Assembly: GCA_022508375.1 (NCBI GenBank)
Contig: JAFLVJ010000003.1
Location: 1-64,000, forward strand
Length of the DNA: 64,000 nt
Source: Clostridiales bacterium
GTDB taxonomy: Bacteria > Bacillota > Clostridia > Christensenellales > CAG-314
Direction of reading: 5' to 3'
Position numbers and translations under genes: made by a program. The notes beneath the pieces were generated by a model that was given only the letters and a program-made list of their open reading frames with translations, was not told the DNA's origin and did no database searches. Of the stretch, positions 28,715 through 48,190 are shown in pieces (within the stretch, counting starts at the first letter, position 1; every line of letters begins with the position of its first letter).

Positions 28715-28884
28715 TGAGGCGGTTAGAAGCGAGGTAGGCGAGGCGCACGCGTGGCGAGGGCAATGCCCGACCCCCAGCGTATTTCGAAGAAATCGCGTGC
28801 TTGCATGACGGGAGCGTACTAAGCGTACGTGACCGAAGGCAAACGCAAGTGGAACAAAGCATACCGACGCTTATAACTGCCTCA
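28715..28884. repeat. Intergenic inverted-repeat element, copy A (TTAGAAGC subfamily)
   Basis: Ends TGAGGCGGTTAGAAGCG (left) and TGAGGCAGTTATAAGCG (right, reverse complement) are inverted repeats. The core GGGAGCGTACTAAGCGTACG then TGACCGAAG is shared with the other copies, and the element also carries CCCGACCCCCAGCG, shared with copy E. Its right tip supplies the TGA stop of the permease gene at 28882. Confidence 0.8.
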
Positions 28885-29676
28885 GCTACCTGTGGATTCG
28901 TAGCGCTTTTCTAAGGCACGCCAGATGACGATTGATATAGCGAACAGCGCGCAGGAAACCAACACTACCACCCCTGCAATGAGATATGGCGAATAGCTTT
29001 GAAACAGGAATATCTCGACAGGGTAGGAAATGATCAGCGCAAAGGGAAAAACAAAGGTTAGCATTCCCTTAATAAACTTGGGGTAAATGCTTATCGGGTA
29101 ACGCGTGTAACCGATAAAGTTATAGGCTACCTGCAACAGTTGCCCGCTACGCTTAAATTTGAATGCAAGCGAGGCAAATATAATCTTGAAGGACGTTATA
29201 ACCAATGCGCCGAACACGGTTGCAATAATCAATACGAACACAGCGCCGAAACTCCACGTAACATCTAACATGCTTCCGCATACCGCAAGCATTACTATGC
29301 CTACGATAAGCTCGCCCAAACCTTCCAGTTGGAACGTTTCGGCGATAACCTGAAACAAAACGGGCACAGGCTTGGTGAACATCCTGTCCAAGTCGCCGTT
29401 TCTCACCTTCCAATATGCCACGTTCCACAAGTCGTCTGTAAATATGTGGTCAAGCGCTACAGGCATCATGGAAAAGCCGTACAAAAAGCCCAATTCCACC
29501 ATTGTCCAACCTTGCAACGACGGAATGCTTTCCATTATCATCCAGATGGACAGTATTGACGCCACGTTGGTGAGGAAAAAGTTGAATATGGATATGAAAG
29601 TGTCTCTTTTGTACTCTAAACGTGTAATGATAGAGCGTTTAATGCAGGTAAAGTACAGTTTTATATATCTTAACAT
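28882..29676 (-). CDS. ABC-2 family permease (second exporter, subunit 2)
   Basis: A 264-residue membrane protein with about six helices, of the uncharacterised ABC-2 permease group that pairs with a second permease and the ATPase typified by GQKTQLWWD (COG3694 / COG4587 / COG4586 triad). The segment MFTKPVPVLFQVIAETFQLE after helix 2 is a good match to this group. The start at 29676 has only a distant GGAG (about 18 nt). Its TGA stop is the first three bases of repeat copy A, and copy D separates it from the partner permease. Substrate unknown. Confidence 0.85.
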   Translation of the reverse strand: MLRYIKLYFTCIKRSIITRLEYKRDTFISIFNFFLTNVASILSIWMIMESIPSLQGWTMVELGFLYGFSMMPVALDHIFTDDLWNVAYWKVRNGDLDRMFTKPVPVLFQVIAETFQLEGLGELIVGIVMLAVCGSMLDVTWSFGAVFVLIIATVFGALVITSFKIIFASLAFKFKRSGQLLQVAYNFIGYTRYPISIYPKFIKGMLTFVFPFALIISYPVEIFLFQSYSPYLIAGVVVLVSCALFAISIVIWRALEKRYESTGS

Positions 29677-29711
29677 ACTTAAATGATAATAATCTCCTTG
29701 TTACAAAACGC

Positions 29712-29840
29712 TTTTGAAAGTACAGTCGCGCGTCAGGTGGGCAACAGGTGACAATCTACACGCAGGGAGCGTACTAGGCGTACGTGACCAAGGTAGTTGA
29801 CACACGTAGCACGCATTACGCGATGAATGTGCTTTCAAAA
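29712..29840. repeat. Intergenic inverted-repeat element, copy D (GAAAGTGCAGTCG subfamily)
   Basis: TTTTGAAAGTACAGTCGCGC at the left and, reverse-complemented, TTTTGAAAGCACATTCATCG at the right. The core GGGAGCGTACTAGGCGTACG then TGACCAAGG has the stem CGTAC / GTACG. It lies between two permease genes, 2 bp after the stop of the gene at 29842. Confidence 0.85.
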
Positions 29841-29841
29841 A

Positions 29842-30666
29842 TTAACCTCCTTGTACCGTAACTTTTTTACTGGCTTGGCGGAAAAGCAACCATGCAATAA
29901 GTTCCATTACGCACAGCCAACCAAGGGACAGGGCAATGCACTTGAGCGCTGAAAGTAAATCCATCTTCATGATGAGTATCAATACCGGATTTTGACTGAT
30001 TCCCGCAAAAGGTGAATAGGATACGATGTCCTTGAACACTCCCGGGAAAAACGACAACGGAATTAACGTACCACCAAGAAAACTGAGAACAACATCCTTG
30101 ATTGCATTCATGCCCCAAGCTGCAGTTGTATAAAAGCACAGTACACCGCAAATGTAATTGATACAATCATACAGTAATACAGCAAACAACTGCGCCATCA
30201 CAAACAGTAACAAGTGAAGTAAAAACATCCAAACGGAAGTAATAACTATGTAACCGAGGACGCCAAATACAACGTACAGTATGGTGAATGCAGGCAATCC
30301 CAACAGCAACATGTTCATACTAAAACCGCCAAGTGTAGTAAATATGAACCGTACACGATATGATATAGGCTTGACAAAAGACATGGCAATTGTTCCGGTT
30401 TTTATATCTTGCGATATACTATACATTGTGTCACCGGCAAATGTCACGAAATTGAACACGTTAATAAACGCAGTGTACACCAGCATGTCATTGAGCGTAA
30501 AGCCGTTGATAATTTCGTCGGGAGAGTTCCTATATACGCCAATCCACAAAAAGAATACGCACAACACTTGCAGTGCGCTGACAATCAACCACCCGAAAAT
30601 ATTAAATTTGTACGCAAGCGTTTCCATTGCGCCCGCGCGGAAAAACGGTTTGTATCTTCTTAACAT
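29842..30666 (-). CDS. ABC-2 family permease (second exporter, subunit 1)
   Basis: A 274-residue membrane protein with about six helices. The N-terminus (RYKPFFRAGAMETLAYKFNI) is basic and amphipathic, the external loop holds YRNSPDEIINGFTLNDML, and SISQDIKTGTIAMSFVKPIS matches the cytoplasmic loop conserved in this permease pair. It is encoded 60 bp after the ATPase at 30727 and before the second permease, which gives an ATPase-permease-permease exporter. Repeat copy D begins right after its stop, so transcription of the last gene has to pass the repeat. Confidence 0.85.
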   Translation of the reverse strand: MLRRYKPFFRAGAMETLAYKFNIFGWLIVSALQVLCVFFLWIGVYRNSPDEIINGFTLNDMLVYTAFINVFNFVTFAGDTMYSISQDIKTGTIAMSFVKPISYRVRFIFTTLGGFSMNMLLLGLPAFTILYVVFGVLGYIVITSVWMFLLHLLLFVMAQLFAVLLYDCINYICGVLCFYTTAAWGMNAIKDVVLSFLGGTLIPLSFFPGVFKDIVSYSPFAGISQNPVLILIMKMDLLSALKCIALSLGWLCVMELIAWLLFRQASKKVTVQGG

Positions 30667-30726
30667 AAATTTATATTAGTTTGTTTGCATTAGTTTATCG
30701 TTTGAAAAAGTGTTTTGTTGCCGATA

Positions 30727-31716
30727 TCACTTGGATTCTTTTTCGTGCAAGATACTGCGCACTACATCCTCGATTGTGATTTCGGCAACCTTTAAGTCGC
30801 TACTCTTCAGCGTATGGAAAGCGTAATCCACTACCTGCTCCATTGCAATATCGTCGGCGTTAAACTTTATTAGCAAATTGCTGTCCTGCTGTTCGTAGCT
30901 CACCTTACCGTCATAGGTGTTTAACTCATCAGTTGAGTACTCTACCTTAGGGGTGACGGTTACCGTACGCAAATCGCCGAAACGGTGCTTGATTGTTTCG
31001 AGCGCTCCGTCGTAGATGATTCCGCCGTTTTCGATGATGACAATACGTGAACACAAATCCTCGATATCCTGCATGTCGTGGGTTGTGAGTATAACGGTTG
31101 TCTTGTACTTGGCGTTCATTACCTTGATTGCCTCGCGGATACGTTCCTTGACAAGCACGTCCAAGCCTATAGTGGGCTCGTCCAAAAACAGGATTCGCGG
31201 ATTGTGCAGCCATGCTGCTGCCAAGTCTGCGCGCATACGCTGTCCCAACGATAACGTGCGTACAGCCTGACTGAGAAACTCACGAATGCCTAGCGTATCG
31301 CACAAAAAGTCCATACGCTCCTTGTAATCCGCGTCGCTTATCTGATAAATTTCCTTTAGCACCTTGAAGCTTTCAATAAGAGGAATATCCCACCACAACT
31401 GCGTTTTCTGTCCAAACACAACGCCGATTTTTTGTGCTATCTTGCGTCTATTTTTGTACGGTTCAACGCCATCGACAAGCACCTTGCCCTCGGTTGGCGT
31501 AAGTATTCCGCACATCATCTTAATTGTCGTGGACTTGCCTGCACCGTTGGAACCTATGTAGCCTACAATTTCACCTTCGGCAATATCCAGGTTAATATGA
31601 TTTACGGCAACAATTTCCTCATATTTAGCGGAAAACAACGTCTTGAGCATGCCCAAGACGCCCTCTTGCCTTATCGGTTTTTTAAATATTTTCGTTAAAT
31701 TTTCTATATGTATCAT
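30727..31716 (-). CDS. ABC transporter ATPase (second exporter, COG4586-like)
   Basis: A 329-residue ATPase. Walker A is GSNGAGKST, followed by the group-specific VFGQKTQLWWDIP in place of the Q-loop region, signature LSLGQRMRADLAAAWL, Walker B ILFLDEPTIGLD, and switch histidine TTHDMQDIE. A C-terminal extension of about 90 residues (VTVTPKVEYSTDELNTYDGK) is normal for this class. All catalytic residues are present. It heads a three-gene unit with two membrane subunits and has its own promoter. Divergent from the small HTH genes at 31895 and 32287, which are candidate regulators by position only. Confidence 0.93.
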   Translation of the reverse strand: MIHIENLTKIFKKPIRQEGVLGMLKTLFSAKYEEIVAVNHINLDIAEGEIVGYIGSNGAGKSTTIKMMCGILTPTEGKVLVDGVEPYKNRRKIAQKIGVVFGQKTQLWWDIPLIESFKVLKEIYQISDADYKERMDFLCDTLGIREFLSQAVRTLSLGQRMRADLAAAWLHNPRILFLDEPTIGLDVLVKERIREAIKVMNAKYKTTVILTTHDMQDIEDLCSRIVIIENGGIIYDGALETIKHRFGDLRTVTVTPKVEYSTDELNTYDGKVSYEQQDSNLLIKFNADDIAMEQVVDYAFHTLKSSDLKVAEITIEDVVRSILHEKESK

Positions 31717-31753
31717 GTGATCCTCAAGTGGAACATTTGTTCGTTGTAATGAT

Positions 31754-31783
31754 ATTTTATTGCAATAACGCCACCATTGTCAA
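31754..31783 (-). promoter_or_regulatory. Promoter of the second ABC exporter operon
   Basis: TTGACA (31778-31783), 18-bp spacer, TAAAAT (31754-31759) on the minus strand, about 38 bp before the ATPase ATG. Confidence 0.65.
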
Positions 31784-31894
31784 GCAAATTGCCATTATTA
31801 CATTTGTTTGTATTTAATTTACAAGAGCGCTACTCAATGACTGCCGTAATAATTTGCCGCAATTTGCGCACATTAAAACAAAGGAGTGATCATG

Positions 31895-32104
31895 ATGACC
31901 GTAGCACAAATAGTAGGAGATAACTTAAGACAGGCACGTAGAGCCAAGGGACTCACGCAACAAAAAGTTGCCGAAGCAATGAATAAATACCAGTCGGATT
32001 ACAGCGATTACGAAAGGGGACTTATCCAACTGGACTACGACAAGATTGTATTTTTGTGCAAGATGTTTGATATTACGCCCAACGAGTTATTTTCTTTTGA
32101 CTGA
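31895..32104 (+). CDS. Small XRE-type HTH protein, copy 1
   Basis: A 69-residue protein that is nothing but a Cro/C1-type helix-turn-helix: IVGDNLRQARRAKGLTQQKV, a turn at AEAMNKYQSDYSDYERG, and the ending LCKMFDITPNELFSF. The ATG at 31895 was chosen over the GTG and ATG upstream because it aligns with copy 2 and sits 8 nt after AAGGAG. It faces away from the ABC operon and may regulate it or itself. Confidence 0.82.
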   Translation: MTVAQIVGDNLRQARRAKGLTQQKVAEAMNKYQSDYSDYERGLIQLDYDKIVFLCKMFDITPNELFSFD

Positions 32105-32258
32105 AATTAGGTGAATAGGTTTTTACAAATCGGTATTGACAGTCTCCCTGCCTCTGCCATTAACATGAGAGCCATTTAATAAGCACTAACTGATAATATC
32201 TAAAAGTAATTTTATAGGATTTATTCCTATATGTCAAGCGAAAAATAGGAAAAATTAC

Positions 32259-32264
32259 TATAAT
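32259..32264 (+). promoter_or_regulatory. -10 box of HTH copy 2, with nearby inverted repeats
   Basis: TATAAT at 32259-32264 with no good -35 box. Just upstream ATAGGA-TTTAT-TCCTAT forms an inverted repeat (about 32213-32230), and AAAAATAGGA repeats half of it. This is a likely operator for one of the small HTH proteins. Confidence 0.35.
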
Positions 32265-32286
32265 CTTACGCACAGGGGGCTTAGAT

Positions 32287-32499
32287 ATGACTATATCACA
32301 AATTGTAGGCGAAAATTTGAAACAAGCTCGAAAAGCTAAAGGGTTGACTCAAAAACAAGTGGCTGAAACGCTGAACAAATATCAACCCGATTACTGCGAA
32401 TACGAAACAGGACAAATCCAGCTTGACTACGAAAAAATCGTGTTGTTATGTAAACTGTTGGACATAACACCCAATGACCTATTTTCCATACACAAGTAA
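32287..32499 (+). CDS. Small XRE-type HTH protein, copy 2
   Basis: A 70-residue HTH-only protein, roughly two-thirds identical to copy 1 along its whole length: IVGENLKQARKAKGLTQKQV aligns with IVGDNLRQARRAKGLTQQKV, and both end LCK-x-x-DITPN-x-LFS. Recent tandem duplication is the simplest origin. The separating 180 bp carries its own -10 box and inverted repeat, so the two may be expressed separately and could form heterodimers. Terminates at the hairpin at 32506. Confidence 0.82.
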   Translation: MTISQIVGENLKQARKAKGLTQKQVAETLNKYQPDYCEYETGQIQLDYEKIVLLCKLLDITPNDLFSIHK

Positions 32500-32505
32500 T
32501 TCACA

Positions 32506-32533
32506 AAAATGCAGCGAAATATCGCTGCATTTT
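32506..32533. terminator. Bidirectional terminator between HTH copy 2 and smpB
   Basis: AAAATGCAGCG pairs with CGCTGCATTTT around AAATAT, with T runs on both strands. It serves the convergent HTH and smpB transcripts. Confidence 0.88.
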
Positions 32534-32574
32534 AATTATCAAATAAACTTGGCATCAATTTATTACGACACTTA

Positions 32575-33030
32575 TCACCGTCTCTCAGCATACTCTTTCA
32601 TTGTGCGCTGAAGATCGCGCTCGGCGTCTTTTTTGAGTAGTGACTCCTTCTTGTCATAGTCGCGCTTGCCCTTGACAAGACCCACTTCTACCTTGACAAG
32701 GCTGTCCTTGAAGTAAAGCTTTAGCGGAACTATCGAATAGCCCTTTTCCTTGACTTTACCCATCATACGCATGATTTCACGCTTGTGAGCAAGCAGTCTT
32801 CTGTCACGCCTCGACGCTACGTTGGAGTAGCTGCCTTTGTCGTAATTTTTGATATGACAGTTGAGCAATATCAAACTTCCATCCACAATTCGGCAATAGG
32901 AATCGGCAAGGTTAACTTCGCCCTTTCTTAGCGACTTGACCTCGCAACCTATAAGATTTATTCCGCATTCCAGTGACTCCACTACGTTGTAGTCGTGAAA
33001 TGCCTTTTTGTTTGTGGATATTAGTTTCAT
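32575..33030 (-). CDS. smpB: SsrA-binding protein SmpB
   Basis: A 151-residue protein of normal length with the family's landmarks: KAFHDYNVVESLECGINLIG, the EVKSLRKGEVNLADSYC core, CHIKNYDKGSY, and the basic C-terminal tail (GKRDYDKKESLLKKDAERDL). SmpB carries tmRNA to stalled ribosomes and the tail enters the empty mRNA channel. It is the last gene of the glycolysis-SecG-RNase R operon, a common order in Clostridia; RNase R, encoded two genes upstream, acts with tmRNA. The tmRNA gene itself, often next to smpB, was not found in this window. Confidence 0.97.
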   Translation of the reverse strand: MKLISTNKKAFHDYNVVESLECGINLIGCEVKSLRKGEVNLADSYCRIVDGSLILLNCHIKNYDKGSYSNVASRRDRRLLAHKREIMRMMGKVKEKGYSIVPLKLYFKDSLVKVEVGLVKGKRDYDKKESLLKKDAERDLQRTMKEYAERR

Positions 33031-33052
33031 AGTCTTTAATTAGCTATTTGTT

Positions 33053-33436
33053 TTACTTTTCGTCAATGACGTTGTTCTCGGCGTGATCGGAATCGGCGTC
33101 ATCTTTGGGCTGTTCCTCTTGGGAAAGAGTGGCTGCTGTCTTTTTGTTTCGGCGAACTTTCTTGACTGCGCCCACCGTAAGACATGCGTCCAAAATTACG
33201 TACGCCCAAAATAGTCCAATCCAAATAAGTGACGCAAGAGGTGGCCAAGCACTGTCCCTTATGATAACGTCGGTAATTACATAACCTATAACAGCAACGC
33301 CAAGCAATACCAATCCTACGATGTTTGTCTTGGTTTTGTTGCGCTGTTTTATGCTGCCGATTATGTCAAAGAGTATAAGTATTATTCCTATACCCGCAAA
33401 AATTCCGCCTATCCAAGGTAATACTTTTTCCCACAT
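33053..33436 (-). CDS. Small membrane protein between rnr and smpB
   Basis: A 127-residue protein with about three membrane helices (residues 8-28, 42-62 and 77-100) and an acidic, probably cytoplasmic tail (SQEEQPKDDADSDHAENN). The start is taken as the ATG at 33436 (MWEKVLPWIGG), behind a weak AAAGGCGG. A longer frame begins 21 residues earlier without a better ribosome site. Co-transcribed with rnr and smpB (spacing 60 and 22 bp). I do not recognise the family. Confidence 0.7.
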   Translation of the reverse strand: MWEKVLPWIGGIFAGIGIILILFDIIGSIKQRNKTKTNIVGLVLLGVAVIGYVITDVIIRDSAWPPLASLIWIGLFWAYVILDACLTVGAVKKVRRNKKTAATLSQEEQPKDDADSDHAENNVIDEK

Positions 33437-33559
33437 TTGTAAAACCGCCTTTTTGTGAGCTGCTACTTTCGGTAATAACCGAAAACTCACCAAGTACAAA
33501 TATAATATATATCTTAGGTAAACTTTTCGTCAACAGATATGAGGAAATTAAGTAATTTT

Positions 33560-35674
33560 TCAGTTTACTTTTGCCGGCATGATATCGAAATCAATCTTAC
33601 ATGCCTGACGGTTGACAGACGCCACGCGTATTGTTATCGCGTCTCCAAGAGAATACTTGACAGCATCGTTAAACAAACAAAACTGTTGTGGGTTGTAACT
33701 TAGATACGAACCTAGCTTGTCCACCGAAATAAATCCTTCCACGGTGTTGTCAAGTTCGGCATAAATTCCCCTTTCGGTTACGCCGGATATGATTGCAGAA
33801 AACGTCTTGCCTATCACACGCTCGGCGTAGGCGCACTTTTTAACGTCGTCCGCTTTGCGTTCGGCTTCGTCGGCAATTTTTTCACGTAGGCTCGATTGCT
33901 TTGCCGCGTCATAACACATATCTTCGTAAGCGCGAAAAGCCTTGTCGGTCATTTTACCGCTAATTGCCGCTTTAAGAACTCGGTGTACAACCAAATCGGG
34001 GTAACGTCTAATTGGTGAAGTAAAGTGACAGTAGCTTTTGCTAGCCAAACCAAAGTGACCCGTGTTCACGTCGCTGTACTTGGCTTTTTGCATGGTGCGT
34101 AGCATTACATCGTTAACAAGATTGAAAAACGGTGTGCATTTTGCTTGCAAAAGTGCGTCTTGCAAAACCGAGTTGTGTATCTCCTGACTGCGTTTGACGT
34201 TTATTCCCAAACCGCGCATAAGCGCAAGCAATACCGCTAGTTTTGCCTCGTCCGGCTTTGCATGAACACGATATACGAATGGATAACAGCACGTTTCGGC
34301 GTATTCGGCAACCGTTTCGTTTGCCACAATCATGAATTCCTCTATCAGCTGATGCGAAAAGCTGTTTTGTACCACCTTAACGTCCACAACTCTCCCCTTC
34401 GCATCGTGCTCGAAATAAACTTCCTTGGTGTTGAATTCGATATTGCCACGCTTGTCGCGCTTGCGTTGCAGAATTTCGGCTAATTCCTTCATTGTGAACA
34501 AGTCTTGTACTATATCGGAGTATCTGCGCAACTCCTCACTGTCCATTGCACCGTCGAGTATTGCCTGCACTGCCGTGTAAGTCATACGGTGACAACTGTT
34601 GATAACGGACGGATAAACGTCGTACCCCACGACCTTTCCCACGGAGTTTATCGTCATTTCACAAGTAAGTGTTAGTCTGTCCACTTTTTCGAACAGCGAA
34701 CAAATACCGTTGGATAACTCGCGTGGCAACATAGGAAATACCGTTTCGGGCAAATATACGCTTGTACCACGTGCAAATGCTTCCTTGTCGATATCATCGC
34801 CCGACTTGACGTAGTGAGATACGTCGGCAATGTGTACGCCCAGCGTAAAGGTGCCGTCGGCGTTTTTCACAATGGATACCGCGTCGTCCAAGTCCTTGGC
34901 GTCCTCGCCGTCGATTGTGAATATTGTGCAACCTCGCAAGTCGCGCCTGCCCGACAAATCGCTTTCGGAAAGCGTTTGAGCAATTGCCTCAGCCCTTTTT
35001 TGCACTGCGGGCGGGAAGTCCTGACTGAGTCCAAAACTCCTTGCAACGGACAGGATATCCACGTTTTTATCCTTAGCAAAGCCCAGCACCTCCACTATCT
35101 CGCCTTCGGGACAGTTACGGTTGTCATCGGGAAAAACAGTAATACGCGCTACCACCTTTTGACCGTTCTTGGCGCCTAAATCACGCTTGGGCTGAATGTA
35201 GATGTCACTGGCAAAACGTTGATCGTCAGGCAGGACAAAACGAGCGTTGTTGCTTTTGTCATAGGTGCCTACAATGTGCGTCATGCCGCGCGATACAATC
35301 TTGACAATTTCCGCTTCGTCGGTTGTGCCCTTGATACGCTTGTACATGACTGTATCTTTGTGAAAAGCGCCGTTTGTTTTGTTCGCGGGTACAAATAGGT
35401 CATCGCCGTCATCACTCAGGATAAAGCCAAAGCCGCGTGCGTTTCCGCAAAACTCCGCAACGCCGTAATCACCTTCCTTGACAATACGGTAACGGTGATT
35501 GCGAGCATCATATATCAATTGACAGTCCTTTTCAAGCTGTGTGAGCGCGTCTGTTACTGCCCTACGCTCCGCAGTTGAATGGGTTTGCAAAATACCGTAA
35601 ATCTGCTTTACGGTAAAGTACTCGCTATTGATATTTTTGAGTATTTGAAGTAATTTATCTTTAAAAGTTTCCAT
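33560..35674 (-). CDS. rnr: Ribonuclease R
   Basis: A 704-residue 3'-5' exoribonuclease with the full domain order: winged helix (about 1-65, VTDALTQLEKDCQLIY), cold-shock domains (about 70-215), catalytic RNB domain and C-terminal S1 domain (about 620-700, FSAIISGVTERGIYAELDN). The RNB catalytic aspartates lie in CTIFTIDGEDAKDLDDAV, and HFTSPIRRYPDLVVHR is the conserved RNA-clamp motif. RNase R degrades structured RNA and non-stop mRNA with tmRNA-SmpB, in line with smpB in the same operon. No SD is evident before the ATG. Repeat copy B lies 60 bp upstream of the start. Confidence 0.97.
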   Translation of the reverse strand: METFKDKLLQILKNINSEYFTVKQIYGILQTHSTAERRAVTDALTQLEKDCQLIYDARNHRYRIVKEGDYGVAEFCGNARGFGFILSDDGDDLFVPANKTNGAFHKDTVMYKRIKGTTDEAEIVKIVSRGMTHIVGTYDKSNNARFVLPDDQRFASDIYIQPKRDLGAKNGQKVVARITVFPDDNRNCPEGEIVEVLGFAKDKNVDILSVARSFGLSQDFPPAVQKRAEAIAQTLSESDLSGRRDLRGCTIFTIDGEDAKDLDDAVSIVKNADGTFTLGVHIADVSHYVKSGDDIDKEAFARGTSVYLPETVFPMLPRELSNGICSLFEKVDRLTLTCEMTINSVGKVVGYDVYPSVINSCHRMTYTAVQAILDGAMDSEELRRYSDIVQDLFTMKELAEILQRKRDKRGNIEFNTKEVYFEHDAKGRVVDVKVVQNSFSHQLIEEFMIVANETVAEYAETCCYPFVYRVHAKPDEAKLAVLLALMRGLGINVKRSQEIHNSVLQDALLQAKCTPFFNLVNDVMLRTMQKAKYSDVNTGHFGLASKSYCHFTSPIRRYPDLVVHRVLKAAISGKMTDKAFRAYEDMCYDAAKQSSLREKIADEAERKADDVKKCAYAERVIGKTFSAIISGVTERGIYAELDNTVEGFISVDKLGSYLSYNPQQFCLFNDAVKYSLGDAITIRVASVNRQACKIDFDIMPAKVN

Positions 35675-35733
35675 GATATGCTATTAGTATAAGTTGTAAT
35701 GAGTTTTACAATTCCCCATAATATTCATTTCAA

Positions 35734-35854
35734 TTGAGAGCGTTAGAAGCGAGCAAGACGAGGCGCGCAAGTATTTACAAGGGGAGTCTAAGCGTACATG
35801 ACCCGAAGTAAAACAGAGCGGAACAAAGTATTGCGATGCTTATAACGTTTTCAA
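35734..35854. repeat. Intergenic inverted-repeat element, copy B (TTAGAAGC subfamily)
   Basis: Left end TTGAGAGCGTTAGAAGC and right end (reverse complement) TTGAAAACGTTATAAGC. The core is decayed (GGGGAGTCTAAGCGTACATG then ACCCGAAG). It lies between secG and rnr, directly after the secG terminator. Confidence 0.75.
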
Positions 35855-35885
35855 CAAAAAAGCGACAGTAATTAAATACTGTCGC
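35855..35885 (-). terminator. Terminator after secG
   Basis: GCGACAGTA (35862-35870) pairs with TACTGTCGC (35877-35885) and is followed on the minus strand by six T. It should end or attenuate transcription between secG and rnr. Confidence 0.88.
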
Positions 35886-41483: not shown

Positions 41484-41501
41484 AACAACAAGGAGAGACA
41501 T

Positions 41502-42002
41502 TTGAAACCACTTATTTGTGATTTACCGTATCCGTCAACCGATACCCTAACCAAAGATATACGAAGCGGAAATATTATATCTTTTGCTTACGCCACGCTA
41601 AAAGGTGAACTAACGGCAACGTTACAGTACGTTTACCACCACTTTTTCTTCGGTCAGATTGATGAAACGGACAGCGAAATATTGATGGCAATAGCCAAGG
41701 CGGAGATGATGCACATTGATATACTGGGCAAAGCAATGCTAAAACTGGGTGTAAACCCAAGATACGTGCAGTGTCCCAATACAAACGCCTTTTACAACAC
41801 ATCTACCGTATCGCAGGCAACAAGCGCGCAGAAAATGCTTATGGACGACATACAAGGGGAAATGACGGCAATTGCCGACTATCAAAAAATGCTGTTCGTA
41901 CTAAAAAACGAACAGGTGGAAGCAATCATTCAACGAATTATTCTCGATGAACAACTACACCTTGAAAAGTTAAAAGAAATGTTAGCAAAATACGCTAAGT
42001 AA
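41502..42002 (+). CDS. Ferritin-like di-iron protein
   Basis: A 166-residue four-helix protein with the full di-iron ligand pattern of the ferritin/rubrerythrin superfamily: Glu in helix 1 (LKGELTATLQYVYHH), E-x-x-H in helix 2 (KAEMMHIDILG), Glu in helix 3 (IQGEMTAIADYQ), and E-x-x-H in helix 4 (LDEQLHLEKLKEML). It lacks the rubredoxin tail of rubrerythrin and is close to manganese-catalase-like and small ferritin-like proteins of Clostridia. A role in peroxide or iron handling is inferred. The TTG start is supported by AAGGAGA 5 nt upstream. Alone on the plus strand, convergent with ispDF across repeat copy C. Confidence 0.85.
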   Translation: MKPLICDLPYPSTDTLTKDIRSGNIISFAYATLKGELTATLQYVYHHFFFGQIDETDSEILMAIAKAEMMHIDILGKAMLKLGVNPRYVQCPNTNAFYNTSTVSQATSAQKMLMDDIQGEMTAIADYQKMLFVLKNEQVEAIIQRIILDEQLHLEKLKEMLAKYAK

Positions 42003-42059
42003 AAAATAATGTATTGAGTTAATAAATTATTGTACGAAACAAATGAATTATTCCTAAGC

Positions 42060-42185
42060 TTTGAGGTGATTAGAAGCGAGGTAGGCGAGGCGTGCGAGGC
42101 TTTTGCGAAGGAGCGTACTAAGACGTACGTGACTGAGCAAAAACGTAGCAGAACAAAGCATACCGACGCTTATAACCGCCTCAAA
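42060..42185. repeat. Intergenic inverted-repeat element, copy C (TTAGAAGC subfamily)
   Basis: Left end TTTGAGGTGATTAGAAGCG, right end (reverse complement) TTTGAGGCGGTTATAAGCG. The core GGAGCGTACTAAGACGTACG then TGACTGAG matches copies A and H. The right end overlaps the ispDF gene: it encodes the last residues (LRRL) and its TAA stop. Confidence 0.85.
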
Positions 42186-43225
42186 AGAGTTTGGGCGTTG
42201 ACTGCGATACCGTCGCCGTTACCTAACGCACCCAAGTGCTCCGTTGTAGTTGCGGATAAATTGACGCAACCGGGCGAAACCTTGAGTATTGCAGACAAAC
42301 GGTTTGCCATTTCGTCAACGTGGGGTGAAATTTTCGGTGCTTGACATATAATCACCGCCGAAACGTTTACGACTTCGTAACCGCTTTGTGCAGCAAGTTC
42401 CACACATTGCGCCAGTAGCTTTGTACTGTCTGCGCCCTTGTAGCGCTCGTCTGTGTCGGGAAATTGATGCCCTATATCCTTGTTGCCCGATGCGGACAAT
42501 ATTGCGTCGCTTATAGCGTGGCATAACGCATCGGCGTCCGAGTGACCTTGTAACTTCTTGTCAAAGGGGATTGTTACTCCGCCTAGTATCACACCGTTTC
42601 CCTCTCCAAAAGGATGAACGTCGAAACCTACACCCACCTTAAATTCGGGCAAATCTTCCTTAAACGTAATCTTGGTATTGCCACGCATACCCTCGACAAA
42701 GTTGACTGCGCCGTACGTATCGAAGTACAGCGTGCTCTCGTCAGTGTAGTCGCCTGTTGCGTGTTCGACGGCGTAACGTAGCTTAGCAACGTCGAAAACC
42801 TGTGGCGTTTGAACTGTAAACAAAGCGTTTCTGTTTGCTTTTTTTACTCCGCTCTTTCCCTTTGTATAAACGGTATCCGTTACCGGCAAATGGGGCACAG
42901 CCGAACCATGTTGCTCCGCCTCGGCGTAAAGTCGCTCGACAAATTGACGGGTAATAAACGGGCGCGCGCCGTCATGGATTGCGACAAGTCCGTGACCGTC
43001 CGCTACTTTCATAAGTCCGTTAAACACCGACTGAAAGCGAGTGTTACCGCCCTCGGCGTATATGGTGCCGTCTATCTTTTGTCCTACTACAACAACTACG
43101 TCCGCAACAGCCTGAAAAACGTCCACACTGTGTTGTAGGACGCTTTTGTCAAGTAATTGTTCATTGAGTTTGTCTTTGCCGTAACGGGAGGAAGTTCCAC
43201 CCGCCACAATGATTGCGTATTTCAT
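42170..43225 (-). CDS. ispDF: Bifunctional IspD/IspF (methylerythritol phosphate pathway)
   Basis: A 351-residue fusion of two enzymes of isoprenoid precursor synthesis. Residues 1-195 are the IspD cytidylyltransferase (IIVAGGTSSRYGKDKLNEQL, GLVAIHDGARPFI, PVTDTVY, LFTVQTPQVF). Residues about 196-351 are IspF, 2-C-methyl-D-erythritol 2,4-cyclodiphosphate synthase (VGVGFDVHPFGEG with metal Asp/His, LQGHSDADALCHAISDAIL, DIGHQFPDTD, SATTTEHLGALGNGDGIAV). IspE acts between these steps. The extreme C-terminus (LRRL-stop) is formed by repeat copy C, so the native end has been replaced. Confidence 0.97.
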   Translation of the reverse strand: MKYAIIVAGGTSSRYGKDKLNEQLLDKSVLQHSVDVFQAVADVVVVVGQKIDGTIYAEGGNTRFQSVFNGLMKVADGHGLVAIHDGARPFITRQFVERLYAEAEQHGSAVPHLPVTDTVYTKGKSGVKKANRNALFTVQTPQVFDVAKLRYAVEHATGDYTDESTLYFDTYGAVNFVEGMRGNTKITFKEDLPEFKVGVGFDVHPFGEGNGVILGGVTIPFDKKLQGHSDADALCHAISDAILSASGNKDIGHQFPDTDERYKGADSTKLLAQCVELAAQSGYEVVNVSAVIICQAPKISPHVDEMANRLSAILKVSPGCVNLSATTTEHLGALGNGDGIAVNAQTLLRRL

Positions 43226-43257
43226 AATTGAAACCTAGATTTTTTGCAAAATGTTCC

Positions 43258-43427
43258 TTGAAAGTGCAGTCGCGCGGTAGGTGTGGCGAGGATGCAGTCC
43301 GACCCCCAGCGATTGTAATAATCGCGTGGCAACTAGTGGCAGTTGTCTGAAGGGAGTGTACTAGACGTACACGACCGAAGCAATCTGACGCACGTAGCCA
43401 TCATAACGCGATGAATGCGCCTTCAAA
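43258..43427. repeat. Intergenic inverted-repeat element, copy E (GAAAGTGCAGTCG subfamily)
   Basis: Left end TTGAAAGTGCAGTCGCGCG, right end (reverse complement) TTTGAAGGCGCATTCATCGCG. The core is GGGAGTGTACTAGACGTACA then CGACCGAAG. It also has the CCGACCCCCAGCGATT block found in copy A of the other subfamily. The right end overlaps the stop codon of rqcP. Confidence 0.85.
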
Positions 43428-43671
43428 GTTCAGCTATAATTTCGTACATCTCGCTTGCCTCATCCTTCTTGACGGACTCCTTGAGCATTTTCACCTTGAA
43501 GGTAAGGGATGCAGTTGCAAAGTGTACAACAACAAGGTCGCCAACCTTTAGTTGACAACCGGGCTTAGCAGGACGTCCGTTGACGTCCACGCGTCCCGCC
43601 GTACACGCCTCCTGCGCTACGGTTCGACGCTTCAATATTCGGGATACCTTCAGAAACTTATCTAAACGCAT
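43423..43671 (-). CDS. rqcP: S4-domain protein RqcP (YabO/Hsp15 family)
   Basis: An 82-residue S4 RNA-binding protein very close to Bacillus YabO/RqcP in length and pattern: MRLDKFLKVSRILKRRTVAQ, GRVDVNGRPAKPG, KVGDLVVVHF, then KKDEASEMYEII. RqcP works with RqcH to add alanine tails on stalled 50S nascent chains. The TGA stop lies in the end of repeat copy E. It follows recR after a 74-bp gap that contains a compact hairpin element. Confidence 0.93.
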   Translation of the reverse strand: MRLDKFLKVSRILKRRTVAQEACTAGRVDVNGRPAKPGCQLKVGDLVVVHFATASLTFKVKMLKESVKKDEASEMYEIIAEL

Positions 43672-43684
43672 AATAAACTTAACA

Positions 43685-43738
43685 GTCCCTCAGTCTGCTA
43701 TGCAGACAGCTCCCGTTACAAATAGGAGCTATTTTTTG
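43685..43738 (+). repeat. Compact double-hairpin (REP-like) element between recR and rqcP
   Basis: CCCTCAGTCTGCTATGCAGA then CAGCTCCC, followed by AGGAGCT and ATTTTTT. The first hairpin is GTCTGC-TAT-GCAGAC; AGCTCC pairs with GGAGCT, and a T6 run follows on the plus strand. I recall similar CCCTCAGTC...GACAGCTCCC repeats scattered in many gut Firmicutes genomes. Could act as a terminator for plus-strand read-through. Confidence 0.55.
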
Positions 43739-43745
43739 CACAAGG

Positions 43746-44336
43746 TCACAATTCTTTTCTATTTGTAAATGCCCTTGAAAGCGTAACCTCATCCGCGTAT
43801 TGTAGTTCGCTACCGATAGATATACCTTGAGCAAGGCGCGTAACCTTGATACCGTACTGCTTGACAAAACGCACAATGTAAGTTGCCGTTGCCTCGCCTT
43901 CCGCCGAGGTATCCGTTGCGAGAATTACTTCCTTGACATCACCTGTCAAACGCTGAAACAGTTCCGCCAAGCGAATATCTTCGCGACCTACACCCTTTAA
44001 AGGATTGAGCACACCGCCAAGCACGTGATACACACCGTGATATTCGCCAAGACGCTCGACCGCAAGTACGTCCTTAGCCTCCTGCACTACGCAGATTGTC
44101 GAGTTGTCCCGCGTGTTGCATATGTGGCAAGGATCCGTATCGGTGTAGTTTCCGCATACGGAGCAAACGGTTACCTTGTCCTTGGCGTCAATTACCGCCT
44201 GAGCAAAGGCGTGCGCTTCCTCTTGCGTCATTGAAAGAACAGTCAACGCGTACCGTTGAGCCGTCTTGCTGCCAACGCCGGGAAGCTTGGTGAATTGGCG
44301 AATTAACTTTTCGATTGGTTCGATGTAGTTTGGCAT
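43746..44336 (-). CDS. recR: Recombination mediator RecR
   Basis: A 196-residue protein of normal length. Helix-hairpin-helix FTKLPGVGSKTAQRYALTVL, four-cysteine zinc finger (CSVCGNYTDTDPCHIC), and a Toprim domain with EAKDVLAVERLGEY and ATDTSAEGEATATYI, then a C-terminal Walker-B-like tail (LAQGISIGSELQYADEVTLS). It helps load RecA in RecFOR repair. Encoded after ybaB in the widespread dnaX-ybaB-recR arrangement. Confidence 0.98.
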   Translation of the reverse strand: MPNYIEPIEKLIRQFTKLPGVGSKTAQRYALTVLSMTQEEAHAFAQAVIDAKDKVTVCSVCGNYTDTDPCHICNTRDNSTICVVQEAKDVLAVERLGEYHGVYHVLGGVLNPLKGVGREDIRLAELFQRLTGDVKEVILATDTSAEGEATATYIVRFVKQYGIKVTRLAQGISIGSELQYADEVTLSRAFTNRKEL

Positions 44337-44386
44337 GGTATAACTTTATCCTTATGGTCTTTGATTAGAACGCGCGTGTGGTCGGT

Positions 44387-44749
44387 TTAAAGTAATCCTT
44401 TCATTGCCGCAAATGGCGCCATGAGTTTATCTTCTTCCTCCTGCGCCTTGGAATACGCGTCGTTGATTGCTGCCAATACAAGATCCTCGAGCATTTCGTG
44501 ATCGTCCGGATCACATGCCTCGGGCTTAATCTTGACGGACAAAATATTCTTTTTACCGTTGCAAGTAACCTCTACAAGTCCGCCGGACGCTGCGCCTGTA
44601 ACTTCCAATTCTTCCAACTGTTGTTGCGCTTCGGCTAGCTTTTGTTGCATCTGTTGCGCCTGCTTCATGAGGTTTTGCATGTTTCCACCGCCAAAGCCAC
44701 CACCGCGTGCGCCTCCACCTGCTCCGTTGTATCCATATTTGTTTCCCAT
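44387..44749 (-). CDS. ybaB: YbaB/EbfC family nucleoid-associated protein
   Basis: A 120-residue protein with the family pattern: NLMKQAQQMQQKLAEAQQQL (helix 1), EVTGAASGGLVEVTCNGKKN, and the C-terminal helix ending MAPFAAMKGLL. The N-terminus is preceded by a Gly-rich stretch (GYNGAGGGARGGGFGGG) that is longer than usual. It binds DNA as a dimer. Strong SD AAGGAG. Between dnaX and recR, as expected. Confidence 0.95.
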   Translation of the reverse strand: MGNKYGYNGAGGGARGGGFGGGNMQNLMKQAQQMQQKLAEAQQQLEELEVTGAASGGLVEVTCNGKKNILSVKIKPEACDPDDHEMLEDLVLAAINDAYSKAQEEEDKLMAPFAAMKGLL

Positions 44750-44767
44750 AATCGTACTCCTTTTATA

Positions 44768-46261
44768 TCACTTCTTATCGTCAAACGTGACGTTTTTACC
44801 AAGTCCGTTAAGTTGCTTTTCTACGTCGCTGTCCGATACTTGTTCTTCCAGTTGAATGACCACTTTGTTGTCACATAAAACTGCCACTTCCGCTTGAATT
44901 ATCCTTTTGTATTTGTTTTCGATGAGCCAATAGGAGCCTTCTCCGCATTTGATAACGTAGTTCCCCTGACTGTCGAACTCTACCTTGACGTCGCGCCACA
45001 CTCCGCTGAGCAGAGGTTCGTTTTTGGCGTCAATGGACATCTTGACACCGCGCCAAATGGACTTGGGGTCGGTTTTATCCACGACGTACAGTCCCTTGCT
45101 TTCGGCGGATATATTTTGCGGGAGTTGCTCCAAACGCGTCAAACGAGTGTTGAGACCTTCGTAGTCCACCTCACCGCTGCTTGACGCAACCTTGAGAGCC
45201 GTAGCCTCGAATAGCATCAATGGTGACAGTGCATAACGTAGATTGGTTTCGAGGCTTACGAGCTGATCTATAGCGTAAAGAAGTTTCTTTACAGTGACGG
45301 TATCGGCAAGCTCCTTTAGCCCTTGATAAACGTCCTGTGGCAACATCAATATTTTGTTGGCATCCTGTACCAGCTTTACAGTTAGTAAGTCGCGGATATA
45401 CAGCGACAAATCCTTGTTTAAGCGGGCAACGTCCTTTCCTTCGGATACCAACTTGTTGGTTTCGGTAAGTATATCGGCTGTCGCGTTGGTTAACACTGCT
45501 TTGCAAAGCGACGCTATGTTGCTTTGTGATGATACGCCCAATATGGACATTACGTCGTCATACGTCAGCTTGCCTGTGGCAGAATAACATCTGTCAGCAA
45601 TGGATACGCAATCTCTCACACTGCCCTCGCCTGCTTGCGCTATTGCTTGGACAGCTTCCATTGTGTACTCTTTACCTTCAGCGTCGTATATCTTGCAAAC
45701 GTGTTGAGCCAATACCGGCGTAGGAACAAGTCGGAAATCGAATCGCATACAGCGCGAAAGAATCGTTGCGGGAATCTTGTGTACTTCCGTTGTGCACAAT
45801 ATGAACAACGCGTGCGCGGGCGGTTCCTCAAGAGTCTTGAGTAGCGCGTTGAATGCGCCGACGGACAGCATGTGAACCTCGTCGATAATATATACCTTGT
45901 ATTTGCCGTTTACGGGAGGATATGCCACCTTTTCGCGAATGTCACGGGCGTAATCTACACCGTTGTTACTTGCCGCGTCCATTTCAATAATATCAAGGTT
46001 GGCGGCGCCTACGGTGTTGCAAACAGCGCATTTGCCACAGGGATTACCGTTGTGTTCCTTGGCATGGGGACAGTTTACTGCGCGGGCAAAAATCTTAGCG
46101 GTACTTGTTTTGCCCGTTCCGCGTGTACCCGTAAACAGATACGCGTGCGACACCTTGTCCTGCAATATCTGGTTGCGCAAAGTATTGATAATATGGTCCT
46201 GTCCTATTACCTCGTCGAAATTAGACGGACGGTATTTACGGTACAATGCAACGTATTTCAT
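44768..46261 (-). CDS. dnaX: DNA polymerase III gamma/tau subunit
   Basis: A 497-residue clamp-loader ATPase. Walker A FTGTRGTGKTSTAKIF (about 43-58), zinc-binding cysteines (CPHAKEHNGNPCGKCAVC), Walker B YIIDEVHML, LEEPPAHALFILCTTEVHKI, and the sensor/arginine-finger ATILSRCMRF are all present, followed by the collar domain (about 230-360) and a short C-terminal region. The full tau form in other bacteria is 550-640 residues, so this is compact. Its SD (AAGGAG) is made from the last codons of the sigma factor gene, 1 nt away. Confidence 0.97.
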   Translation of the reverse strand: MKYVALYRKYRPSNFDEVIGQDHIINTLRNQILQDKVSHAYLFTGTRGTGKTSTAKIFARAVNCPHAKEHNGNPCGKCAVCNTVGAANLDIIEMDAASNNGVDYARDIREKVAYPPVNGKYKVYIIDEVHMLSVGAFNALLKTLEEPPAHALFILCTTEVHKIPATILSRCMRFDFRLVPTPVLAQHVCKIYDAEGKEYTMEAVQAIAQAGEGSVRDCVSIADRCYSATGKLTYDDVMSILGVSSQSNIASLCKAVLTNATADILTETNKLVSEGKDVARLNKDLSLYIRDLLTVKLVQDANKILMLPQDVYQGLKELADTVTVKKLLYAIDQLVSLETNLRYALSPLMLFEATALKVASSSGEVDYEGLNTRLTRLEQLPQNISAESKGLYVVDKTDPKSIWRGVKMSIDAKNEPLLSGVWRDVKVEFDSQGNYVIKCGEGSYWLIENKYKRIIQAEVAVLCDNKVVIQLEEQVSDSDVEKQLNGLGKNVTFDDKK

Positions 46262-46262
46262 A

Positions 46263-46805
46263 TTACTCCTTGTACATTAACAGCTTGCGGCGGGCTCTTT
46301 GCAAAGCTCCGTCCACTGCTTTGTAGCTTTTGTTGGTGTGTACGGCTATATCGTCGTAACTGTAGCCATCGGCGAATAAAGTGAGCACCTTTCGCTCGAA
46401 TGGGGTAAGTTTTTCCTTAATTAGTTGAGCAACCTTTTCGGCGTACTCCTTTTGCAATAGATTTTCAAGCGGACTATTGACTGAGTCGGATAATTGCGCA
46501 ACCGTTTCCAGTTCGACGAAGTTGGAAAGCGGTTTTTGGCTGGCGCCGTTGTCGCGCTTGACAGCGTCCAACAGTTGGCGCAATACGCAAAGCTCCACAA
46601 ACGAAGGGAAAGCGCCCTTGTTTTCGTCGTAGTTGGTGATTGCGTAAAACAATCCCAACATACCTTCCTGCAACAAGTCGTCCTTGTCCCCACCCACCAA
46701 GTAAAACTTGTTGGCGTAGGAGCGGATAAGTCCCTTGTAGTTGCTTACCAATTGCTCGATTGCAACCTGATTACCTGCTTTTGCCTGCTTGATGATTTCT
46801 TCCAA
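46263..46805 (-). CDS. Sigma-70 family factor of the SigH (Spo0H) type
   Basis: A 180-residue sigma factor. Region 2: NYKGLIRSYANKFYLVGGD, then KDDLLQEGMLGLFYAITNYD, and FVELCVLRQLLDAVKRDN; region 4: LTPFERKVLTLFADGYSYDD, IAVHTNKSYKAVDGALQRAR. The FYLVGGDKDDLLQEG block and the gene order rlmB-sigH-dnaX point to SigH, the transition-state and early sporulation sigma of Firmicutes. It is shorter than Bacillus SigH (218). TTG start, 2 nt after the rlmB stop, with SD AGAGG inside rlmB. Whether this organism sporulates cannot be told from the window. Confidence 0.88.
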   Translation of the reverse strand: MEEIIKQAKAGNQVAIEQLVSNYKGLIRSYANKFYLVGGDKDDLLQEGMLGLFYAITNYDENKGAFPSFVELCVLRQLLDAVKRDNGASQKPLSNFVELETVAQLSDSVNSPLENLLQKEYAEKVAQLIKEKLTPFERKVLTLFADGYSYDDIAVHTNKSYKAVDGALQRARRKLLMYKE

Positions 46806-46807
46806 AG

Positions 46808-47509
46808 TTAACCTCTTTGTCGTATGACCTCATAAACGGCTATTCCGCACGCTACCGAGGCGTTTAACGAGTTTACTTTTCCTTTTAGTTTGAGGGATAC
46901 CACGCCGTCACAACATTGCTTGGTGTAGGCGGATATTCCGTCTCCTTCACTACCCACTACAAGCGCGATTGAACCTGTGAGGTTTGCCGAAGTAATTTCC
47001 TGTCCGTCCATGTCCAGCGCATATACCCACACGCCCGAACTTTGCAGTTGTTTTATCGCGTTGTTTATGTTGGTTACGCGCGCTATCTTCATGTGCGCAA
47101 CGGCTCCTGCCGATGTGCGTACGACGGTGTCGGTAACTGCAACCTGACGGTTACGCCCAATAATAATGCCATCCACTCCTGCACATTCGCAAGCGCGGAT
47201 TATGCTACCGAAATTGTGCGGATCGGATAGGTTATCCAAAATAACTACAAACGGAGTAGGATTCCCCTCAAGAATATCCTCTAATTGACAGTAATTAAAG
47301 TCCGTTACGTCGGCAACGTAGCCTTGGTGCTTCCCTTCTATACTTGCTTTGTCCAATACGCTCTTATCTACGAAGCTTACCTTGACCCCCTTACTGCGGG
47401 CAAGTGCAACGATACTATTTGACATGCCCTTTTCTACCATGAGCGAGTTTACGGTGATATCATCCGATTTGAGCGCTTCGTAAACGCTGTTTCTTCCTTC
47501 TATTTTCAT
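46808..47509 (-). CDS. rlmB: 23S rRNA 2'-O-ribose methyltransferase (TrmH/RlmB family)
   Basis: A 233-residue SPOUT methyltransferase. An N-terminal substrate-binding domain (EGRNSVYEALKSDD) is followed by the knotted catalytic domain with the three family motifs: LDNLSDPHNFGSIIRACECA, IALVVGSEGDGIS, and VSLKLKGKVNSLNASVACGI. RlmB methylates G2251 (E. coli numbering) of 23S rRNA; YacO-type relatives in Firmicutes lie in this same cluster. No SD is seen. Repeat copy F lies in the 66-bp gap to mrnC. Confidence 0.95.
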   Translation of the reverse strand: MKIEGRNSVYEALKSDDITVNSLMVEKGMSNSIVALARSKGVKVSFVDKSVLDKASIEGKHQGYVADVTDFNYCQLEDILEGNPTPFVVILDNLSDPHNFGSIIRACECAGVDGIIIGRNRQVAVTDTVVRTSAGAVAHMKIARVTNINNAIKQLQSSGVWVYALDMDGQEITSANLTGSIALVVGSEGDGISAYTKQCCDGVVSLKLKGKVNSLNASVACGIAVYEVIRQRG

Positions 47510-47539
47510 AACAATTACTGTAAAACCTGACTAATATTA

Positions 47540-47599
47540 TTGGGAAAGCACAGTCGTGACCCAGACGACAAGTATCTAGTCAATGAATGTGCTTTCCAA
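47540..47599. repeat. Intergenic inverted-repeat element, copy F (short)
   Basis: A 60-bp member: TTGGGAAAGCACAGTCGTGA at the left and, reverse-complemented, TTGGAAAGCACATTCATTG at the right. The core found in longer copies is absent. It overlaps the last codons of mrnC (STFID-stop). Confidence 0.75.
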
Positions 47600-47971
47600 T
47601 ATGTGTTGTAGGCGCTCCATTTGCCCTGTAAGATACAAATACCCAAGCACTGCCTCAAAACCCGTAGCCTTGCGGTAATCGGCACCGGACTGATTTTTCG
47701 CCCTGTGATGCGAACTGCTGTTGCGTCCGCGCAAATATACCGATTGCTCCGTTTCCGTAAAACTGTCGAAAAGCTTTTCCGCCAGTTTTGCCTGTGTTTC
47801 CGCCTTAACTACACTACTTGCCATCCTGTGCAATTCGTCGATCTTTTTGTCACAGGAGATAACTAGACTGTTACGTACGTACAAACTGTGTACGGCGTCT
47901 CCCACGTAGGCAAGTGTAAGAGCGTTGAGTAACAATGCCTCTTTTTCACTGATGGGTGTAAATAACTCCAA
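47576..47971 (-). CDS. mrnC: Mini-ribonuclease III
   Basis: A 131-residue RNase III catalytic domain without a double-stranded-RNA-binding domain: NALTLAYVGDAVHSLYVRN, RGRNSSSHHRAKNQSGADYR, and ATGFEAVLGYLYLTG. Mini-RNase III trims 23S rRNA ends in Bacillus. TTG start, supported by GGAGGT 9 nt upstream. The last codons (ESTFID-stop) are made by repeat copy F. First gene of the mrnC-rlmB-sigH-dnaX-ybaB-recR-rqcP run. Confidence 0.94.
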   Translation of the reverse strand: MELFTPISEKEALLLNALTLAYVGDAVHSLYVRNSLVISCDKKIDELHRMASSVVKAETQAKLAEKLFDSFTETEQSVYLRGRNSSSHHRAKNQSGADYRKATGFEAVLGYLYLTGQMERLQHILESTFID

Positions 47972-48000
47972 TTAGCCGTGACCTCCTTGCAACAATACCA

Positions 48001-48040
48001 TGAAAGTACAGTCGCGCATACCACGATGAATGCGCTTTCA
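48001..48040. repeat. Intergenic inverted-repeat element, copy G (minimal)
   Basis: A 40-bp version of only the two ends: TGAAAGTACAGTCGCGC and, reverse-complemented, TGAAAGCGCATTCATCG. It sits 24 bp from the larger copy H. Confidence 0.8.
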
Positions 48041-48063
48041 ATTCATTTATTAAAATAATTTGT

Positions 48064-48190
48064 TTGAAAGTGCAGTCGCGCGTTAGGTAGGCAACTGGTG
48101 AGAAGCCGATTGACGGGAGCGTACTAAGACGTACGTGACCGAAGCGGCTTAACGCACGTAGCCTGCATCACGCGATGAATGCGCTTTCAA
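48064..48190. repeat. Intergenic inverted-repeat element, copy H (full length)
   Basis: TTGAAAGTGCAGTCGCGCG at the left, TTGAAAGCGCATTCATCGCG (reverse complement) at the right, core GGGAGCGTACTAAGACGTAC then GTGACCGAAG. The right end overlaps the TGA stop of the GNAT gene. The clearest full-length member. Confidence 0.88.

Follow-up and report, generated by a model that had tools for sequence, protein, structure and literature searches.

The usual definition of a bacterial miniature inverted-repeat transposable element (MITE) rests on its ends, and MITEs are, to our knowledge, bound to particular lineages. Lineage-bound too, as far as is known, are ERIC, the other enterobacterial units and the BOX, RUP and SPRITE repeats, and integron attC sites adopt an imperfect, strand-biased hairpin that is positioned between a stop codon and the following start. 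Repetitive extragenic palindromic (REP) sequences measure 20–40 bp and end in GTAG or CGTC, those ending in GTAG being paired with a Y1 transposase, according to the passages of PMC3733652 that treat them. Our study concerns a family of dispersed hairpin elements in a 64 000-nucleotide stretch of DNA from a Clostridiales bacterium (G000:C18:1-64000, hereafter the window), which belongs to a draft genome of 1.63 Mb that is 89 % complete. The copies are probably MITE-like, non-autonomous mobile elements that are built on one strand-specific hairpin and carry exchangeable ends fitting the local enzyme. A conserved interior with variable ends is the reverse of the textbook MITE.

Intact copies were seen to form one long imperfect hairpin from end to end, with fixed, regularly placed internal loops and a near-fixed tip (GG-GA-GYGTAC-loop-GTACRT-GA-CC). 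Two subfamilies, T1 and T2, were distinguished by short motifs. In an alignment of 43 T1 copies from the window's genus, 91.8 % of the cells pair and both sides have changed in 31 of the 42 pairs. The covariation score of 0.500, compared to 0.177 for shuffled and ≤0.128 for slid controls, comes from a structure predicted from that same alignment and from shuffles that do not preserve relatedness. The tip stem GYGTAC/GTACRT alternates between U-A (26/43) and C-G (16/43), and the foot of the stem is a G-U wobble in 38/43 T1 copies. Redundancy filtering reduced 145 copies to a non-redundant set of 126 drawn from a wide range of hosts, of which 112 have at least 30 pairs spanning the tip, against 14 when the flanks were shuffled. 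The plus strand was more stable by RNA folding in 120 of these 126 copies, by a mean of 12 kcal/mol, compared to 110/231 control windows located 400 nt away. DNA energies favoured the plus strand in 121/126 and, as the bias is the same with both sets of energies, RNA and single-stranded DNA are not distinguishable on this basis. Isolated mismatches in 106 hairpins were skewed (G.T 130 versus A.C 55; G.A 230 versus C.T 43); when all mismatches were counted, G.T (228) was about equal to A.C (218) and G.A (502) exceeded C.T (87).

Covariance models were built from the 43 T1 copies (R2) and from 13 T2 copies (R3), all from the window's genus. At E ≤10, the two models recovered eight copies (A to H) and nothing else in the 64 kb, the other rows of the T2 scan being weaker matches to known copies (H and B on the minus strand, D and part of A). 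The eight copies share the plus strand; A, C and D belong to T1 and B, E and H to T2, while F and G are T2 copies in shortened form. An intact copy is ~130 nt long, or ~175 nt with an extra module. Besides the scores given below, the T1 model scored B at 54.7, H at 49.4 and the core of E at 30.4 bits. Folding z-scores were −4.5 for A, −7.3 for H and −2.6 for E, for which 2/200 shuffles folded equally well. The features are as follows.

28714-28885, plus strand: copy A, T1 with extra module; T1 model 79 bits; adjoins the stop of gene 28882-29676 (minus strand)
28751-28800 (approximate limits), plus strand: extra module in A, a separate small repeat
29694-29699, minus strand: Shine-Dalgarno beside B, ahead of the downstream gene and 16 nt from the hairpin base
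29711-29842, plus strand: copy B, T2; T2 model 134 bits; gene 29842-30666 stops on one side and gene 28882-29676 starts on the other
35732-35857, plus strand: copy C, T1 with tip partly deleted; T1 model 107.7 bits
42059-42186, plus strand: copy D, T1; T1 model 127 bits; abuts a minus-strand gene
43257-43428, plus strand: copy E, T2 with extra module; T2 model 65.6 bits (hairpin part); at a stop/start overlap (ATGA)
43283-43330 (approximate limits), plus strand: extra module in E, a separate small repeat
47540-47605, plus strand: copy F, T2 remnant without the core; T2 model 34.2 bits
47983-47988, minus strand: Shine-Dalgarno next to G; none was seen where the homologous genes meet in G023, G020 and G024
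48001-48041, plus strand: copy G, T2 remnant, ends only; T2 model 25.2 bits
48063-48191, plus strand: copy H, intact T2; T2 model 134.1 bits; the adjoining gene takes its TGA stop from this copy

A first-pass annotation of the window had listed a dispersed inverted-repeat family of at least eight copies; the eight that it named were all recovered here, although F and G proved to be internally deleted remnants and C lacks part of its tip (GGGGAGTCTAAGCGTACATGACC). The core that it had described as common to most copies recurs more often than by chance, a 23-nt core being matched at 19 places in the genome with ≤3 mismatches, against 0 for the reversed pattern; the exact 20-mer is found in H only, D differs by one mismatch and the remaining copies vary more. 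The two kinds of end that it described around one core are those of the T1 and T2 subfamilies. The CCGACCCCCAGCG block that it had noted in both A and E is indeed shared, but belongs to a separate repeat of ~47 nt (GGCGAGG..CCGACCCCCAGCG) with five matches in the genome (L204-L208), these being in A, in E, inside the tip of a T1 copy (L207), in DNA that does not resemble the element (L208) and on the other strand (L204). This module is a second, smaller repeat nested in the hairpin element. Part of copy D (42167-42186) codes for most of the C-terminal residues, LLRRL*, of the gene next to it; these resemble the LLRKF of G019, which has no element at this site. Elsewhere in the window, the minus strand of 48884-63280 holds three long open reading frames (ORFs; 917, 1078 and 2587 aa) amid many short degenerate repeats.

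The window copies have moved. The window is for the most part collinear with sister genomes G023, G024, G020 and G019, and empty sites, which had been proposed as a check on mobility, were found for A, B, C, E and G/H. The site of copy A is occupied in G023, where the module is missing, while in G024, G019 and G022 the same gene codes for a terminal YESTGS or YESTGN and its stop is not followed by an element. Copy B is shortened in G023 and absent in G024 (junction TTAA-T-ATG) and G019 (TTAG-AC-GTG), where the next start comes almost directly after the stop. Copy C is absent at the homologous site in G023 (one readable comparison). Of D, shortened remnants persist in G023 and G020, and G019 has none. 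Copy E is absent in G023, G020, G024 and G019, and neither G nor H is present in G023, G020 or G024; several alignments misplaced the flanks here, and the empty sites of E and G/H rest on direct reading of the sequences and on the adjoining matches. Copies that are absent or shortened in sister genomes indicate that copies have been gained, shortened or lost. One further copy in the window's own genome (L024) has, as judged by eye, apparent T2 outer arms on a T1-type interior, and it seems as if ends and interior could recombine. Flanking direct repeats with a match score of ≥10 were found in 15/130 cases compared to 5/749 mismatched pairs, but some of these are tandem element copies and they are not used here as proof. 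A perfect, AT-rich direct repeat of 20 bp brackets a Bacteroidales copy (L147:398) and is far longer than the 5 bp found in Porphyromonas.

In Porphyromonas somerae and a relative, intact copies measure 172–174 bp and end in GAGAATGTTGCACGAA and its near-inverse. Among 23 such copies, 14 have exact 5-bp flanking repeats, one has 6 bp, two have 4 bp and six have 2 bp or none (three of them at contig ends); in a mismatched-pair control 5-bp duplications occurred in 2/506. The P. somerae genome contains 121 forward and 122 reverse matches to the element ends with ≤3 mismatches, against 24 and 23 for the control. The left terminal inverted repeat (TIR) of ISPg4, of the IS5 family, is given by Klein et al. 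as GAGACTGTTGCA in the part of PMC4596501 that describes it, and the ends of the Porphyromonas element equal this repeat. A partial DDE_Tnp_1 element of P. levii (L308) ends in the same letters. With ISPg4-type ends and 5-bp duplications, which fit a DDE transposase, the Porphyromonas element resembles a MITE that is moved by a transposase of IS5 type. Copies of the family as a whole are non-coding, short and multicopy, and in the window's genus their insertion is seen from unoccupied homologous sites. Membership of the MITEs holds in Porphyromonas and is incomplete in the window's genus. That the family is a mobile non-autonomous element, one of the options left by the first-pass annotation, is supported by the absences at homologous sites and by the Porphyromonas duplications.

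The exact core pattern was present in 6/41 genomes of the order and genus, the window's own included, which is an underestimate because G024 scores none by this pattern yet has copies. In a sample of the phylum it was found in the own genome only (1/398). Scanning 84 980 species genomes for the core pattern returned at least 116 stretches, from which taxon counts are not prevalences; the hosts among the matches listed include Clostridia, Bacteroidales, Porphyromonas, Desulfovibrio, Desulfobacterales, Verrucomicrobia, Sandaracinaceae and others, with isolates among them. The T1 model matched 45/46 loci hand-picked from 120 pattern loci (E ≤1); in 43 the match spanned the whole model, and the best E was 1.3e-16. 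The single miss, L122, is a pattern match without a hairpin. It also added copies that the pattern had missed, for example L134:6671-6803 and L053:1188-1317. Because loci L051-L170 were recruited by the exact core pattern, the identity of the tip is imposed there. Two loop boxes that lie outside the pattern, and that were defined after the sequences were seen, co-occur in 45/95 copies of these loci against 1.5 expected from shuffles. An alignment across phyla (A1) produced a weak consensus of 8 pairs (R1) and was set aside. Bacteroidota and Desulfobacterota are thus among the groups in which the hairpin is present. Patchy presence combined with high copy number fits mobility. The core was also found on four viral contigs, and a viral contig of 13.8 kb (L167) has three T1-model matches. 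Copy H had no blastn match among phage and plasmid records. Copies lie directly upstream of a 16S rRNA gene in a Coriobacteriales metagenome-assembled genome (L059:2360-2560, two in tandem) and in Sporosarcina sp. NCCP-2222 (L093).

Genes around the copies were called by a simple ORF rule, so that single position cases may be wrong, and the stop-distance counts exclude 11 short-hairpin copies and 47 that overlap called ORFs. The right-hand gene is antisense to the folding strand in 64 of the 80 intergenic copies with a called right neighbour, and in these 64 the median distance of its stop from the end of the hairpin is −2 nt (quartiles −6 and 14). For genes on the left, the median distances were 153 and 162. 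Stops within 60 nt (n=55) were TAA in 27, TGA in 21 and TAG in seven. The right end was the one nearer to a gene in 20/23 convergent and 27/30 tandem pairs. A stop was found within 15 nt in 11/14 copies of the own genome, 4/5 of the rest of the order, 17/25 of other Clostridia, 4/10 of Bacteroidota and 6/10 of others. Porphyromonas (23 copies) gave five measurable right-hand stop distances (−1, 27, 69, 113 and 435) and no stop preference. Proximity to the stop codon may reflect either targeting or selection, and precise targeting is not claimed; the lack of a stop preference in Porphyromonas suggests that selection may explain it. No shared neighbour gene emerged when ORFs of ≥80 aa from L027-L170 were clustered, as no family occurred in more than six loci.

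T2 copies B, E and G/H occupy junctions where one gene stops and the next one starts. Read along the operon, a Shine-Dalgarno lies 13–17 nt past the hairpin base in 10/16 T2 copies, a set that drops the mis-typed copy L270 and includes remnant G. The other copies of the genus had one at 9–17 nt in 3/47 (Fisher p 1.3e-5 versus T2), the hairpin base in this comparison set being placed by a fixed offset and A and E being included with a base misplaced by the module. A 17-letter leader string taken from L239 is matched at 16 letters by L232, 14 by B and 13 by L240, whereas ≥13 matches occurred in 3/1880 windows cut from the 64 kb on both strands. At unoccupied B sites the Shine-Dalgarno precedes the insertion point, and the homologous junctions of G are without AAGGAGG. 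From these junctions of B and G, it is most likely that the Shine-Dalgarno came with the element. Alternatively, the insertion at B may have duplicated a target of 12–15 bp, but this is the less favoured choice, since other T2 copies carry a similar Shine-Dalgarno leader. Those T2 copies that were open to checking lie in operon junctions, and most T2 copies are accompanied by a ribosome-binding site, so that the downstream gene can remain translatable.

Several other explanations must be weighed against a mobile hairpin with exchangeable ends. The copies could belong to ordinary MITE families, each with its own transposase, with the common tip arising by convergence or as a generic stable palindrome. 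The Porphyromonas copies are indeed plain IS5-type MITEs, and MITE transcripts are said to form stable stem-loops in a passage of PMC10969869. Yet the T1 model matches full-length in hosts of other phyla, the two loop boxes outside the search pattern occur together far above expectation and the wobble is kept as G-U, and we regard such an origin as fairly unlikely. It is unlikely that the hairpin is a structured RNA (a small RNA or an element of the 3′ untranslated region) that functions for the host and has spread secondarily. The strand-specific fold and the covariation are what it would lead us to expect, and one T1 copy of the own genome, L001 (G000:C1:316016), follows a perfect TTGACA-17-TATAAT promoter, precedes a same-strand start codon and may be a transcribed leader. 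However, the left flanks of 63 copies are not enriched in promoters (score ≥10: five forward, eight reverse, 3.3 shuffled), in 64/80 the gene that abuts the copy on the right runs antisense to the folding strand, and copies vary between sister species, with the exact pattern in 0/397 other sampled members of the phylum. No Rfam family fell on a copy either: a scan of window positions 27000-49500 at E ≤1 gave only a sub-threshold ar35 at 48828-48958, away from every copy, and scanning 14 other loci gave rRNA and tRNA only. A structured RNA family had been among the possibilities of the first-pass annotation; the one-strand structure that this implies is present, but with DNA energies giving the same bias it does not amount to evidence of a functional RNA.

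Two further explanations concern the mode of movement. If the folded strand were the substrate of a recombinase acting on single-stranded DNA, in the manner of an integron attC or an IS200/IS605-type end, this would suit a folded strand antisense to the preceding gene, T2 copies between a stop and the next start, structure kept more than sequence and the bias in DNA energies (121/126). This is quite unlikely in our view, as the consensus ends (TTTGAG and TTTGAAAG) of alignments A2 and A3 contain no RYYYAAC/GTTRRRY pair, the own genome is without a Y1 match and the 5-bp Porphyromonas duplications fit a DDE transposase. Movement of a retro-element by reverse transcription of plus-strand RNA is very improbable; the 20-bp repeat flanking the Bacteroidales copy and the orientation relative to stop codons could be explained by it, but RVT_1 has no match in 15/24 genomes with the core pattern, the own genome included, and the duplications in Porphyromonas are fixed at 5 bp.

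Some of our own results weigh against a MITE-like element as well. No secure target duplication was found in the window's genus. DDE_Tnp_1 had no match in the own genome, G023, G024, G029 or 11/17 others, being present in 6/21. Y1 transposase was unmatched in the own genome, in 13/27 genomes and in 12/24 with the core pattern, although it was present in 14/27, including 5/7 other genus members searched, and RVT_1, missing as described above, was present in one of the four other genus members searched (G006). Neither an enzyme nor an intact autonomous element was found in the own genome, which is 89 % complete and was searched for these three families only, so that the partner transposase or RAYT gene envisaged in the first-pass annotation did not emerge. 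No pair of ends 1–2 kb apart occurred in the own genome, where the genome-wide search covered the T1 ends (31 places), and no long-spaced ends of an autonomous copy were found among the exact Porphyromonas matches listed. Another enzyme would have to act in the window's genome. Outside the genus, the tip is imposed by the search pattern, which inflates the model scores, and common descent of the tip across phyla, as opposed to convergence, is not proven. Compensatory change in palindromes can also arise by strand-switch repair, although repair between the arms should also erase the constant internal loops and the wobble pair. The reading to which we commit is that the hairpin is under selection on one strand and that the ends are tuned to local enzymes.

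Under this reading, the conserved part of the element would be the long hairpin that folds on one strand, the ends would be exchanged according to the enzyme of each host, and mobilization would occur in trans by a host transposase. Given the host range, the likeliest partner of the tip would be a universal host factor, which would act on the plus strand in its folded form. A bolder version is possible rather than probable: a hairpin module recognized on one strand by such a factor may have spread through at least three phyla as the passenger of unrelated MITE families, swapping ends to suit whichever transposase was available, with a branch of it in the window's genus becoming an operon-junction element that has its own ribosome-binding site, inserts between stop and start codons and silences neither gene. 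T2 copies would naturally separate tightly packed operon genes while translation continues. The element also makes it testable what a hairpin gives a mobile element, whether protection of host transcripts, a handle for transposition or a binding site for a host factor.

Compared to integron attC sites, the R boxes were not found in the present element and it is the tip rather than the ends that is conserved. The IS5-family MITEs of Porphyromonas (MITEPgRS/MITE464 and BrickBuilt; PMC4596501) are likewise non-coding and multicopy with short TIRs like those of resident IS5 elements, but they are described as carrying tandem repeats of 41 and 23 nt, and the passages devoted to them describe neither a long strand-specific hairpin nor a cross-phylum tip. 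Enterobacterial units including ERIC, as portrayed in part of PMC2759123, are also short structured intergenic repeats (103–168 bp), and the pneumococcal BOX, RUP and SPRITE are short, structured, intergenic and over-represented between convergent genes (PMC3049150). Both groups differ from our element in sequence, and the pneumococcal account, in the portion that bears on these repeats, describes no ribosome-binding site or exchangeable ends. REP sequences and BIMEs with RAYT are similarly dispersed extragenic hairpins, some of them transcribed, in the relevant passages of PMC3733652. A REP-like nature in the RAYT sense, also raised in the first-pass annotation, does not agree with our data, as the own genome lacks Y1, which is unmatched in 13/27 genomes overall, and the present element has other ends and, at ~130 bp, is several times longer than the 20–40 bp of REPs (PMC3733652). 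No title or abstract describing the hairpin was found among the open-access literature matches listed, subscription journals and ISfinder being outside the search. Twenty palindromic candidate RNAs without a predicted terminator are reported in part of PMC8040213. One core under two types of end had been considered unlike a simple MITE; this holds and extends across phyla, and an interior kept on one strand across phyla while the ends change is unlike the usual definition of a MITE.

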